Positions 17,562-57,040 of a stretch of DNA of 64,000 nucleotides are shown piece after piece. A program made the position numbers and the translations under genes. The stretch comes from Mesomycoplasma ovipneumoniae (GTDB lineage: Bacteria > Bacillota_I > Bacilli_A > Mycoplasmatales > Metamycoplasmataceae): contig NZ_CP124621.1 of NCBI RefSeq assembly GCF_030012565.1, forward strand, positions 868,001-932,000, read 5' to 3'. Below the pieces are notes generated by a model. It had not been told where the DNA came from. It worked only from the letters and a program-made list of their open reading frames with translations, and ran no database searches. Numbering within the stretch: position 1 is the first letter of the stretch; each line of letters begins with the position of its first letter.

Positions 17562-17588
17562 TATGACTTTTTGCTTTTAAGTTTGTCC
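17561..17588 (+). repeat. copy of the 3' end of the GDSL-like gene
   Basis: Matches 18711-18738 (the stop codon and last codons of the minus-strand GDSL-like gene) at 25 of 28 positions, with the first 18 identical (TTATGACTTTTTGCTTTT). The two copies bracket the repeat island in the same orientation. Confidence 0.6.
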
Positions 17589-17589
17589 T

Positions 17590-17688
17590 GAGTTCCCAGT
17601 TTGATGCCAAAAATTCACTTTTTAGTGAATACAACTATGCAAAAATACCGGTAAATCGGTGTTTTTTGACGCTAAAACCTTAATTTTT
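17590..17688 (+). repeat. S element (copy a)
   Basis: Consists in order of GAGTTCCCAGTTTGATG, the ATTCACT/AGTGAAT hairpin, the ACCG-GTAAAT-CGGT hairpin followed by a T run, and GCTAAAACCTTAATTTTT. The second stem differs in sequence from other copies yet still pairs. It lies downstream of uvrC in terminator orientation. Confidence 0.75.
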
Positions 17689-17712
17689 ATTCTTTCAAAA
17701 TTAAGCTTTTGC

Positions 17713-17781
17713 AAAAAAAAAAAAAAAATGCTTGGTCAAAAATAAAGTTATGTTATAATTAAACTCACTTAAGAATGAATT
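17713..17781 (+). repeat. L element 5' fragment with A16 tract and promoter
   Basis: Bases 17728-17781 are identical over 54 bases to 18416-18469, then the match stops abruptly. It starts with 16 consecutive A residues (17713-17728), followed by TTGGTC (17732-17737), a 16-base spacer and TATAAT (17754-17759). A truncated S element begins at 17785. This appears to be an L element truncated just past its promoter. Confidence 0.8.
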
Positions 17782-17784
17782 TCT

Positions 17785-17840
17785 GAGTTTCCCAGTTTGA
17801 CGAGATAATTTTAAAAAAGGGTCGGGTTTTAGGGGATTTT
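17785..17840 (+). repeat. S element fragment (copy b)
   Basis: Begins with GAGTTTCCCAGTTTGACGAG and continues GATAATTTTAAAAAAG, like the fragment at 55824-55860, then diverges. It lacks the two S hairpins. Confidence 0.6.
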
Positions 17841-17914
17841 TTAATTTTTCTGGCAAAAGTTAATTACAATTTTTTACTGATTTACTAAAATATCAAAGTA
17901 AAAATCACACTCCT

Positions 17915-18013
17915 GAGTTTCCCAGTTTGATGGAAAATTCACTTTTTAGTGAATATAAAATATACAAAAATACCCGTAAATCCGGGTTTTTTGGTGCTAA
18001 AATCCTTATTTTT
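17915..18013 (+). repeat. S element (copy c)
   Basis: Full-length S element: GAGTTTCCCAGTTTGATGG, the ATTCACT/AGTGAAT hairpin, ACCCG-TAAATC-CGGGT with T6, and GCTAAAATCCTTATTTTT. The second stem is identical in sequence to the copy at 56281-56376. Confidence 0.8.
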
Positions 18014-18016
18014 CCC

Positions 18017-18114
18017 GAGTTTCCCAGTTTTAAGGCAAAAATTCACTTTTTAGTGAATCTAAACATGAAAAAACACCCATAAATCAGTGTTTTTTGAACG
18101 TAAAACCTTAATTT
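18017..18114 (+). repeat. S element (copy d)
   Basis: Directly follows copy c in tandem. The first hairpin is intact, and the second stem is reduced to CAC/GTG with mismatches, still followed by T6. Confidence 0.75.
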
Positions 18115-18147
18115 ATATTAATGTCATTTAATTGCATTTTAAGTAAT

Positions 18148-18166
18148 TTTATGGTATAATTATAAA
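18148..18166 (+). promoter_or_regulatory. candidate promoter of the 44-residue ORF
   Basis: TAATTTTATGGTATAATT is identical to the 18 bases around the -10 box of the rpsB promoter (minus strand, about 37994-38011). TATAAT lies only about 10 bases before the ATG at 18169, so a transcript would have almost no leader. Confidence 0.45.
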
Positions 18167-18168
18167 TT

Positions 18169-18303
18169 ATGAAAAAACAAAATAAAGATGGTTTTATTGA
18201 AGTAAACAAATTGTTTGGCAAAAAACCTAAATATTTTAAGGAAATTTCAAACATGAAATTTGAAACAAGTTATTTGGAAACAATCAATACTTTGATATCT
18301 TAA
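18169..18303 (+). CDS. hypothetical small protein (44 aa), possibly leaderless
   Basis: ATG 18169 to TAA 18301 encodes a basic peptide (MKKQNKDGFIEVNKLFGKKP followed by KYFKEISNMKFETSYLETIN and TLIS). There is no ribosome-binding site, and a -10-like TATAAT is just upstream, which would fit leaderless translation. It sits inside the repeat island between S elements of opposite orientation. It may be a genuine short gene or the 5' remnant of a longer gene cut by element insertion. No family recognised. Confidence 0.4.
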   Translation: MKKQNKDGFIEVNKLFGKKPKYFKEISNMKFETSYLETINTLIS

Positions 18304-18346
18304 TAAATTACTAATAAAATTGTAATTAACTTTTACCAAAAAACTT

Positions 18347-18404
18347 AAAAAATTGCCTAAAACCGGATGCTTTTTTGAAATTACCTTATCAAACTGGGAA
18401 ACTC
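18347..18404 (-). repeat. S element (copy e, inverted, degenerate)
   Basis: On the minus strand it starts GAGTTTCCCAGTTTGATAAG and ends with the CCGGTTTTAGG region and a T run. The first hairpin is missing. Its orientation suits termination of the minus-strand GDSL-like gene. Confidence 0.6.
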
Positions 18405-18407
18405 AGG

Positions 18408-18705
18408 AAAAAAAAATGCTTGGTCAAAAATAAAGTTATGTTATAATTAAACTCACTTAAGAATGAATTAATAAATTTTGATATTGAATTAAGGGGGGAA
18501 TTAGATATGTTTTTTGGCATGAAAAAAATGAAATAATGCGAATTTTCCATTATGTTTTTAAATATGATGGAATGCCTTAAATTTAACCGTTTAGAAATCT
18601 TCAAATTTATGGCTTTTAATTATTGTTCTTTCAAAACTTCATATATTTTTTTAGGTTCAATGTAAAAACGAGTTTTCTTTTTACATTGAGTTTAAATAGT
18701 AGTTG
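18408..18705 (+). ncRNA. L element, full copy 1: candidate structured RNA
   Basis: A9 tract (18408-18416), TTGGTC (18420-18425), 16-base spacer, TATAAT (18442-18447), then an approximately 250-base body. The body includes a Shine-Dalgarno-like AAGGGGGG (18491-18498) before a 9-codon ORF (18507-18536). Stem A is a 13-bp stem between 18545-18557 and 18560-18572, including wobble pairs. Stem B is a perfect 11-bp stem between 18658-18668 and 18678-18688. Copy 2, inverted, is at 55948-56236. Substitutions between copies keep both stems paired. A T7 run at 18705-18711 could end the transcript. Whether it is transcribed is not shown. Confidence 0.6.
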
Positions 18706-18710
18706 TTTTT

Positions 18711-18738
18711 TTATGACTTTTTGCTTTTGAGTTTATCT
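18711..18738 (+). repeat. 3' end of the GDSL-like gene, duplicated at 17561
   Basis: Right-hand partner of the direct repeat at 17561-17588. Here the bases encode the last residues (KLKSKKS) and stop of the minus-strand gene, so this is the original and the 17561 copy is the duplicate. Confidence 0.6.
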
Positions 18739-53685: not shown

Positions 53686-55776
53686 ATGGAAATTATATCT
53701 CAAGAAAAACTCAAAAATTTTCTTAAAAACGAAAAGACTTTTATTGAAATTGTTAGAAAATTTAACGTGCCTTTTGACTTAAATCAACATTTGACACACC
53801 AAATAAGCACTTTAATTGAAAATTTCCAGGTTTTCAAAACTCTGGAAGGCAAATATTATTGACCTAAATTTATAGAAACTCGGGTTGGTATTTTCCGCGC
53901 TACCCAATCATCGTTTGGTTTTGTTGAAGATAAGCAAAATCCAGCCCAAAAAAATAATATTTTTATACCCGGAAGATTTACTGCAAATGCTCTTGAGGGC
54001 GATGAAGTCAAAATCAATATTTATGTTGACAGATTCAAAAGTGATCAATTTTTCGGTGTTGTTACTAAAATTATTCAGCGAAACACTAAGTTTTTAATTG
54101 GAAAAGTTGTTAAAGACGATAAATTTTGAGATTTTGAGCCTATTAATTTTAAGGGGAATTTTTTCTTTCGCTGAAATTCAACTCAAGATCTAGAAATCAA
54201 TAATTTTTATAAAGTAAAAATTATTGATTATCAAAAAAATGTCCTTAAACTAGATGTTATTCAAAAAATTGGACACAAATCAGAGCCTTTTTTACATGTA
54301 AAAATTCCTATAATTGAATCAGAAATCACTGACACATTTAGCGCAGAAGTTCTGGCTGAATCATCAAAAATTGAACAAGAAATAAAAAATATCGAGAAAA
54401 ACAGAGTAGATTTACGAAATGAACTTGTGGTAACAATTGATGGCGATGATACAAAAGATTTTGATGACGCCATTTCTATTGAACAAACAAAAGAGGGAAA
54501 TTTTCTCTTAAAAGTTCATATTGCAGACGTAGCACATTATGTAAAACAGGATTCAGCAATTGATATTGAAGCACAAAAAAGGGGAACTTCAATTTATTTG
54601 CCTCACATGGTAATTCCAATGCTACCTGAAGAATTATCAAACGGAATTTGCTCTTTGATGCCTAATGTCGACAGATTTACTATCACAATGGAATCTCTTA
54701 TAAACAAAAAAGGTGAAAATTTATACATTAAAATTTACCCTTCTGTAATTAATTCAAAATGGCGTCTAACTTATGAAAAAGTAAATAATTTTTTTGCTGG
54801 TTCATTTTCATTTGGCGATACAGATCTAGAAAATATGTTAAAAAAGTGTTTAAATTTAAACACTATTTTGTCAAATTTCAAGAAAAAGCAAGGGTATATT
54901 GACCTTGCGCTTGATGAAGTTAAAATTATTTTAGACCAAGAAGGATATACACAATCCCTAAAACTAAAAAGAAGAGGAACTTCTGAAGAATTAATTGAAA
55001 ATTTTATGATTAGGGCAAATGAAAATGTTTCAGAATTTTTAACTAAGAAAAAAATTCCGATTTTATACCGGATTCATGCAACCCCTGATCCTGAAAAAAT
55101 AACAATTTTTAATCAAGTTATTAAATCTTTAGGCATACAACACAGCTTAAAATTAAATCCTACTTCTAAAGAGTTTGCACATAAAATTAATCAAATAAAA
55201 CTAGAAAATAACGACAATTTTCTTAAATATTCAATTTTAAGAACGATGCAAAAAGCAATTTATAGCACTGAAAACGAAGGACATTTTGGTCTTGCAGCTA
55301 GTTTTTATAGTCATTTTACCAGCCCTATCCGTCGTTATCCTGATTTATTATTGCATAGAATTATTCGCAACTTTTTGTTCCAAAAAAATGATGACATTGA
55401 AACTTATAAGGAAATTTTGGAAAAAAATTCCTATACCACAACCGAGTTAGAACAAAAAGCATTTAATTTAGAGAGAAAAATTGTAAATATAAAAAAAGCT
55501 GAGTATGTCCAAAATTTGATTGGAAAATCCTTTAGAGCACAAATAACTTCTATTATTAAATCCGGATTTTTCGTTGAAATTGATGGAATGTTTGATGCCT
55601 TAATAGTAAATAAAACTCTTCCTGATAGCGAAAATGATCCTTATGTATTAGCAGAGGATAATTTTTGTTTATATAATAAAAAACATAGATTTAAATTAGG
55701 CGAATTTATCGATGTTAAAATTGAAAGCGCCAATATTTGAGACGGAAAAATTAGTGCTGTTTTAACAAACTATTAG
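53686..55776 (+). CDS. rnr: ribonuclease R (696 aa)
   Basis: 3'-5' exoribonuclease for mRNA and rRNA decay. After N-terminal cold-shock-like domains (GIFRATQSSFGFVEDKQNP, NIFIPGRFTANALEGDEVKI), the RNB catalytic domain has VVTIDGDDTKDFDDAISIEQ with the four metal-binding Asp residues, HIADVAHYVKQDSAID, GTSIYLPHMVIPMLPEELSN and AASFYSHFTSPIRRYPDLLLH. An S1 domain (FRAQITSIIKSGFFVEIDGM) ends it. TGA codons before 54427 and after 55740 are Trp, giving WDGKISAVLTNY at the end. The last 19 coding bases are duplicated downstream. Confidence 0.97.
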
Positions 55777-55815
55777 TCTTATTTGTAAAAAATGCTATAA
55801 ATTACAGCGTTTTTT
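55758..55815 (+). repeat. direct repeat, original: end of rnr with terminator
   Basis: Starts in the last codons of rnr (TGTTTTAACAAACTATTAG...), includes the stop codon and runs through the TGCTATAAATTACAGCG hairpin into T6. A near copy lies at 56380-56438 in the same orientation, bracketing the S/L island. Confidence 0.85.
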
Positions 55816-55816
55816 G
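55790..55816 (+). terminator. rnr terminator, proximal copy
   Basis: GCTATAA/TTACAGC stem with one mismatch (A opposite C), followed by T6. The distal copy at 56417-56438 has a perfect GCTGTAA/TTACAGC stem. Confidence 0.6.
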
Positions 55817-55823
55817 ATTTCAC

Positions 55824-55860
55824 GAGTTTCCAAGTTTGATGAGTTAATTTTAAAAAAGTA
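55824..55860 (+). repeat. S element fragment (copy g)
   Basis: GAGTTTCCAAGTTTGATGAG continuing into TTAATTTTAAAAAAG, matching the truncated copy at 17785. No hairpins remain. Bases 55861-55947 show no gene or repeat. Confidence 0.6.
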
Positions 55861-55947
55861 AAATTACTAAATATTTAAACTACATCTTTAGCTAAAACAC
55901 TCACAAAAATCATTTATGGATAAAATAACAAAAATATAAAAAAAATA

Positions 55948-56252
55948 CAACTACTATTTAAACTCAATGCAAATAGAAAACTCGTTTTTATTTGCAGCGA
56001 GCCTAAAAAAACATATGAAGTTTTGAAAGAACAATAACCAAAAGCCCTAAATTTATAGATTTCTAAACGGTTAAATTTATGGCATTCCATCATATTTAAA
56101 AATATGACGGAAAATTCGCATTTTCTGATTTTTTAGACAAAAAACATAATTAATTCCCCCTTAATTCAATATAAAAATTTATTAATTATTCTCATGTGAT
56201 TAATATTATAACATAATTTTTTTCTTAGACCAAGCATTTTTTTTTTTTTTTT
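55948..56252 (-). ncRNA. L element, full copy 2 (inverted): candidate structured RNA
   Basis: On the minus strand: A16 tract (56237-56252), TTGGTC (56228-56233), 17-base spacer, TATAAT (56205-56210), AAGGGGG, a 4-codon ORF (MFFV), then the body colinear with 18481-18705. Stem A pairs TTCCGTCATATTT with AAATATGATGGAA. Stem B pairs TGCAAATA (minus strand) with TATTTGCA (plus-strand arms 55968-55975 and 55989-55996), where copy 1 has TGTAAAAA with TTTTTACA. These differences are compensatory. Transcription is inferred from the promoter only. Confidence 0.6.
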
Positions 56253-56280
56253 GAAAAAGGTTGATTTCAAAACTATAAAA

Positions 56281-56376
56281 ATTAAGGTTTTAGCATCAAA
56301 AAACCCGGATTTACGGGTATTTTTGCATATTTATATTCACTAAAAAGTGAATTTTTACCACCTAACTGTCAAACTC
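56281..56376 (-). repeat. S element (copy h, inverted)
   Basis: Full S element on the minus strand: GAGTTTGACAGTTAGGTGG start, ATTCACT/AGTGAAT hairpin, ACCCG-TAAATC-CGGGT followed by T6, and GCTAAAACCTTAATTTTT end. It is downstream of lspA (minus strand) in terminator orientation. Confidence 0.8.
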
Positions 56377-56379
56377 AGG

Positions 56380-56438
56380 TGTTTTAACAAATTATTAGTC
56401 TTATTTGCAAAAAAATGCTGTAAATTACAGCGTTTTTT
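56380..56438 (+). repeat. direct repeat, duplicate of the rnr 3' end and terminator
   Basis: Near copy of 55758-55815: TGTTTTAACAAATTATTAG, CTTATTTGCAAAAAAATGCT and GTAAATTACAGCGTTTTTTT. It contains a perfect GCTGTAA/TTACAGC stem (56417-56430) with T7 and now serves as the boundary between rnr and lspA, whose stop codon begins at 56440. Confidence 0.85.
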
Positions 56439-57040
56439 TAATTTTTATTTCTTTTCTTAAAGATTTTATTTTTAAGTTTTTTTGAAATTCAAGGTTGAGC
56501 ATGATCATAAAGAGAGACAATAAAAATTCCAATAGGTCCAACAAAAATAAAAATATCTGCAAAATTAAATGTCCCACTTGACCTTACAAATGGCAAAAAA
56601 AGTAAATCTTTTACTTGATTATCATCCAAAATTCGGTCAATTTCGTTACCTCAATTCCCACCTAATAATATGGCCATAAAAACTGTAAGCGAATATTTTT
56701 TTGAAAAAGGAATCAAAATCAAAAGTATCAAACTTAATAAAAAGGCAAAAATATGAATGCCTGTAAAACCAATAAATTTATTAATTCCCGAAGTTACACC
56801 TTGATGCAAAAGTGGACGAAAACCAATAAAACCTCATGAAATAATTTTGACAAAGCCTTTATCGGTTGATTCCCTATACTCTTCTGGGGTAAAAATTAAA
56901 TTTTTTGTTAGTTGATCGATTAATAAAGCAACTAAAATAACCAAAAAAGCAATCAAAATGTTTATTAATAAGCGTTTTTTGCCGATTTTAGTATATTTTG
57001 AATTAATATATTTAATAATAGGGTTAATTTTTGTTTTCAT
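56438..57040 (-). CDS. lspA: lipoprotein signal peptidase II (200 aa)
   Basis: Membrane aspartyl protease that cleaves prolipoprotein signal peptides. Four membrane helices; the catalytic Asp residues are in GGNWGNEIDRILDD and FNFADIFIFVG, and FRPLLHQGVTSGI is the conserved periplasmic-side segment. TGA Trp codons are used (SWGFIG, GNWGNE). The N-terminus carries an approximately 25-residue Lys-rich extension. It overlaps the end of ileS by 17 bases. The C-terminal stop lies in the T run of the duplicated rnr terminator, so the two genes share a convergent terminator. Confidence 0.94.

Follow-up and report, generated by a model that had tools for sequence, protein, structure and literature searches.

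Length-variable A-tracts of Mesomycoplasma ovipneumoniae lie in a probable IS1634-derived miniature element with an internal promoter and a putative RNA unit

The long A-tracts that precede promoter-like sequences in a 64,000-bp window of the Mesomycoplasma ovipneumoniae genome (the window being the whole stretch of DNA that was analysed) belong to a repeated element; the genome has about 76 copies of it, and the three loci of the window sample only a few of them. With a probability that we put at roughly 80%, this element arose from an IS1634-family insertion sequence as a non-autonomous, MITE-like derivative, in which the tract forms an UP-like part of an internal promoter and changes in length by slippage and by exchange between copies. 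In kind it would be a MITE of the IS1634 type that carries a conserved cassette of promoter and RNA unit. No description of it was found in the literature searched (a scope outside which most subscription journals lay); its A-tract is variable, and a regulatory role of the tract is only putative. The source genome comprises 1,014,835 bp in one contig, and detailed reading of the sequence covered the surroundings of the elements, of IS copies and of further A-tracts. Table 1 lists the features of the window.

Table 1. Positions of the A-tracts, promoter-like sequences and element parts in the 64,000-bp window.
Feature	Position	Strand	Basis
A16 tract, 5' of the -35 box	17713-17728	+	read from sequence
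Promoter-like sequence: TTGGTC 17732-17737, 16-nt spacer, TATAAT 17754-17759 with TG extension	17732-17759	+	
Left part of ancestral element copy: left inverted end, IS-derived hairpins, A16, promoter, first ~20 nt of transcript	17587-17781	+	uninterrupted ortholog in G009
626-bp insertion of IS1634-family pieces: two nested left ends, transposase fragments, right end	17782-18407	+	
A9 tract, within the duplicated 62 bp	18408-18416	+	read from sequence
Duplicate promoter: TTGGTC 18420-18425, 16-nt spacer, TATAAT 18442-18447	18420-18447	+	
Predicted ~270-nt structured transcript, 3' end a long hairpin and T-run	18450-18717	+	
Micro-ORF MFFGMKKMK, with GGGGGG Shine-Dalgarno at 18493-18498	18507-18536	+	
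Target duplication, right copy	55758-55820	-	read from sequence
Complete element copy, ~560 bp, both inverted ends present	55821-56380	-	
Predicted structured transcript	55934-56203	-	
Four-codon micro-ORF MFFV	56147-56133	-	
Promoter-like sequence: TTGGTC 56233-56228, 17-nt spacer, TATAAT 56210-56205	56205-56233	-	
A16 tract (plus strand: T16)	56237-56252	-	read from sequence
Target duplication (~60 bp), left copy, holding the neighbouring gene's terminator-like hairpin	56381-56440	-	read from sequence

The initial annotation of the window had reported the two A16 tracts and the A9 tract, and its coordinates were exact. It had placed them 3-5 bases in front of TTGGTC boxes; they do lie close upstream, and the interval in the window is always three nucleotides (TGC). 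Following TTGGTC and the spacers of 16, 16 and 17 nt, TGTTATAAT forms the extended -10 box at all three loci, and the two A16 tracts are the only runs in the window longer than 9 nt. The loci had also been counted as three separate promoters. Promoter-like sequences are indeed present at each, but the first two represent one ancestral copy that was split by an insertion: a 62-bp direct duplication (17720-17781 and 18408-18469) flanks the inserted 626 bp, and the orthologous site in the related genome G009 (L162) holds a single uninterrupted copy with A15. The duplication copied the promoter together with nine of the A's, and the contrast between A16 and A9 at these two loci is its by-product.

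Several observations point to an IS1634 origin of the element. In the consensus, a left end, CCTGAGTTTgcCAGTTTGATGG, is followed by hairpin-like stretches that are also found in an IS, the A-tract, the promoter, a unit of about 270 nt and the right end; where both ends are recognised, the median length is 572 bp. The ends align to those of a resident IS (L222) over 98 bp at 84% on the left and 86 bp at 78% on the right, and the transposase of this IS scores 331 bits with NF033559 (IS1634), for which the cut-off is 100. Among the 37 copies with both ends recognised, to which this count was confined, 22 are bordered by direct repeats of 17-119 bp, compared with 2 of 300 mismatched controls. Target duplications of IS1634 and IS1549 are likewise long and variable, at 8-514 bp (PMC2266710). 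A direct view of an insertion is offered by copy L073, a 576-bp insertion relative to G009 at which 113 bp of target sequence are duplicated here and single in the empty site of G009. Taken together, the element appears to have kept the IS ends, with the transposase gene replaced by the A-tract, TTGGTC, TGTTATAAT and an RNA unit of about 270 nt with a micro-ORF and terminal hairpin. The sequences show that it reached its approximately 76 sites by transposition, with long duplications of the target left behind.

The A-tract plus TTGGTC pattern has 45 matches in the genome and a looser promoter pattern occurs at 75 places. We extracted 76 element sites, one of which (L088) is probably no member, and at least two further copies (L236, L240) were found later beside other long A-tracts. 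Six close relatives have 45-76 pattern matches per genome, two other members of the genus have one each and the rest have none; the element is also present in M. ovipneumoniae SC01. In a search at the DNA level, G011 yielded one full copy (84%) and G002 one that is degraded. The lone full-length RNA unit of G011 (L010 / L096), in a species otherwise without the family, carries an A21 tract and has an apparently shortened left end. At about 76 copies of about 570 bp, the family occupies roughly 4% of the 1-Mb genome, so that one type of element exceeds the 1.23% given for total repeats in the published genome announcement (PMC10508167). About 70% of the long A-tracts of the genome lie inside elements; hence these copies would dominate searches for phase-variable tracts in M. 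ovipneumoniae and yield many false candidates.

Tract length is clearly variable, as the initial annotation had supposed, and is not fixed between genomes: of 55 orthologous sites compared across three related genomes, 44 differ in length (A7 versus A17, for example) and 11 agree, although one-base differences may include assembly error. A long CT-dinucleotide tract in the sequence flanking L021 (at about position 2400) is another possible site of slippage. Slippage may not be the only source of change in the A-tracts, because the copies of a genome seem to evolve in concert. Orthologous copies have flanks that are 93-96% identical, and the identity of their RNA cores (0.921, 0.917 and 0.930) is about that of non-orthologous copies in the same comparisons (0.915, 0.922 and 0.920). 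Identity is approximately 0.95 outside the element, drops to about 0.83 in its left part and 0.80 in its right part, and is back at 0.94 where the RNA ends on the 3' side. Exchange between copies is the simplest reading of these values, probably by gene conversion, and if copies exchange sequence, a change of tract at a given site need not be slippage. From the orthologous comparison we infer that tract lengths change both through slippage during replication and through the exchange of sequence among copies.

The lengths themselves fall into two classes. Element tracts of the source genome measure either 14-20 nt (62 sites, mode 16) or at most 9 nt (14 sites), with none at 10-13, and some of the short ones are interrupted long ones (e.g., A6-T-A8). 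The same gap is seen outside the family, where 180 kb of sequence contain 390 A-runs of 7, 91 of 8, 4 of 9, none of 10-13 and 6 of at least 14. Genome-wide there are 89 A/T runs of at least 10 nt, 88 of which reach at least 14, leaving a single run at 10-13; composition predicts about 42 and fewer than one, respectively. Similarly lopsided counts are found in other members of the genus whether the element is present or absent (15 genus genomes), and some of the other Mollicutes have such a pattern while some lack it. Since the bimodality is genome- and genus-wide, it looks mutational rather than specific to promoters, and selection for helical phasing was rejected as the main cause of the missing lengths because the gap extends to runs outside elements and to species without them. 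We likewise rejected the idea that short tracts mark dead copies: the divergence of the RNA core does not differ between short- and long-tract copies (p=0.71), and with short-tract copies no more decayed than the others, there is no sign that function depends on tract length. This scarcity of runs at 10-13 nt is what would be seen if the tract were a neutral passenger, that is, a homopolymer that is bistable by mutation, came along with the element and has no effect of its length on promoter output, and the persistence of interrupted tracts agrees with this. The passenger reading, which is compatible with the IS1634-derived element proposed here, appears to us evenly balanced. Against it, one observation suggests a favoured position of long tracts: outside elements, 6 of 22 long A-runs (a hand count) lie 20-38 nt 5' of a -10-like box, compared with 34 of the 964 short runs (p=1.4e-4).

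In nearly all copies the tract ends a few nucleotides (about 3) 5' of the -35 box, which is the position of an UP element. Of the suggestion that these are phase-variable or rate-tuned promoters, this position and the variable length are in keeping with a tuned promoter, which is possible, and the likeness to a gene switch of the vlp type is not supported (see below). Tract length could plausibly act on promoter strength through contacts of the RNA polymerase alpha subunit or through DNA bending. A homopolymer directly 5' of the -35 box tunes the sabA promoter of Helicobacter pylori (PMC4081817), and the like position makes a length effect of the element tract plausible by analogy. By the same analogy, the tract might work as a rheostat, its length aligning upstream DNA with RNA polymerase and so grading the output of each copy. 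The placement of the tract next to the -35 box as in sabA (PMC4081817) and the presence of similarly placed tracts at other promoters of the genome argue for such a rheostat; the distribution into 7-9 and 14-20 nt, being common to runs elsewhere and to species lacking the element, and the short-tract copies without sign of decay argue against it. We consider it possible but rather doubtful, and it too would be compatible with the origin from IS1634. Any length effect, if real, would adjust how much of its own RNA the element makes rather than turn a surface gene on or off.

Promoter-like sequences outside the element family likewise have long A-tracts in front of them (L227, L228, L232, L238, L244, L246), and the genes that follow are candidates for tuning by tract length. 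At L234, an A14 tract (G000:C1:313419) lies about 45 nt 5' of a TATAAT, after which an ORF starts with MKKEIRNKVLIVLAGLSFIGITAG, resembling a signal peptide or lipoprotein. This locus is a better candidate for phase variation than the element copies.

In Mycoplasma hyorhinis, long poly-A tracts in the promoter region of the vlp genes switch these lipoprotein genes, and the tracts of the window had been compared with them. Under a contingency promoter of this type, tract length would turn a downstream surface-protein gene on or off, and both the adjoining of a long A-tract and a promoter and the differences in length between related genomes would fit. The surroundings of the elements do not: an ORF follows downstream of 73 copies; it is convergent in 54 of these and co-directional in 19 (p=5e-5 for convergence), and the co-directional ones start past the end of the element. 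Moreover, the repeat itself looks like a transcribed unit. With most elements facing convergent genes, phase control of a gene is not supported, and we regard a vlp-like switch as very improbable. Both transcript units of the window point at convergent ORFs, and gaps between convergent genes are preferred over divergent ones (32 versus 6). In the simplest account of this arrangement, the element inserts with little harm between convergent genes and would transcribe itself.

The predicted RNA unit is conserved in several respects. In three genomes, 152 of 153 copies keep the ATG of the micro-ORF, 151 of these with a recognisable Shine-Dalgarno sequence, and in 105 of the 152 the ORF has exactly four codons (e.g., MFFV, MFLP, MFLS). 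Four codons are reached through T-runs of differing length (T5 or T6), and the ORF resembles a translation minigene. The unit ends 3' in a long hairpin and a T-run. Support for an RNA structure is moderate: predicted folds are moderately better than those of shuffled sequences (z-scores of -1.5 and -2.9), RNAalifold finds changes on both sides in 1 of 34 pairs, and one pair stands out, columns 209-233 of the 3' hairpin, which covary (C-G 54, T-G 44, T-A 43, C-A 4). Rfam gave no family at gathering score, with rimP and others as sub-threshold matches far below their gathering scores. A frame of 33-37 codons within the transcript is conserved and open in many copies, and could be taken to encode a small protein; however, its variation does not cluster at third codon positions, ATA often stands in place of a start codon, the stop varies between copies and indels interrupt the frame in 58 of the 153. 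This pattern is non-coding, and we rejected the small protein of 33-37 aa as extremely improbable. An antisense RNA to the IS transposase mRNA was also rejected, the best duplex being no better than random windows in a crude test. The findings raise the question of what maintains dozens of nearly identical micro-ORF RNA units, each with a promoter, in a small genome, and whether tract length tunes them. One speculative and, in our judgement, unlikely answer would be that the approximately 76 copies act jointly as a domesticated regulator, all making the same structured RNA with a four-codon minigene behind a strong Shine-Dalgarno, with the spread of A-tract lengths among the copies setting its total dose and gene conversion holding the copies similar.

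The proposed element can be placed among known systems by what it shares with each. With the T-tract promoter of H. pylori sabA it shares a length-variable homopolymer directly 5' of the -35 box; however, sabA drives an adhesin gene and its graded output was measured (PMC4081817), whereas the element has no such gene. With the IS1634/IS1549 family it shares long and variable target duplications, and its inverted ends are those of the resident IS1634-family element, but it lacks a transposase, carries a promoter and an RNA unit, and has about 76 copies of about 570 bp. The vlp promoters of M. hyorhinis, a related mycoplasma, also have a long poly-A tract in the promoter region, yet there it switches lipoprotein genes and the elements have no such gene downstream. 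The Correia elements of Neisseria are bacterial MITEs carrying promoters and are, like the element described here, short, non-autonomous, intergenic and bounded by inverted ends. In contrast to them, the M. ovipneumoniae element has other ends and belongs with another transposase family, and its promoter seems to serve a conserved transcript inside the element and not the genes next to it.
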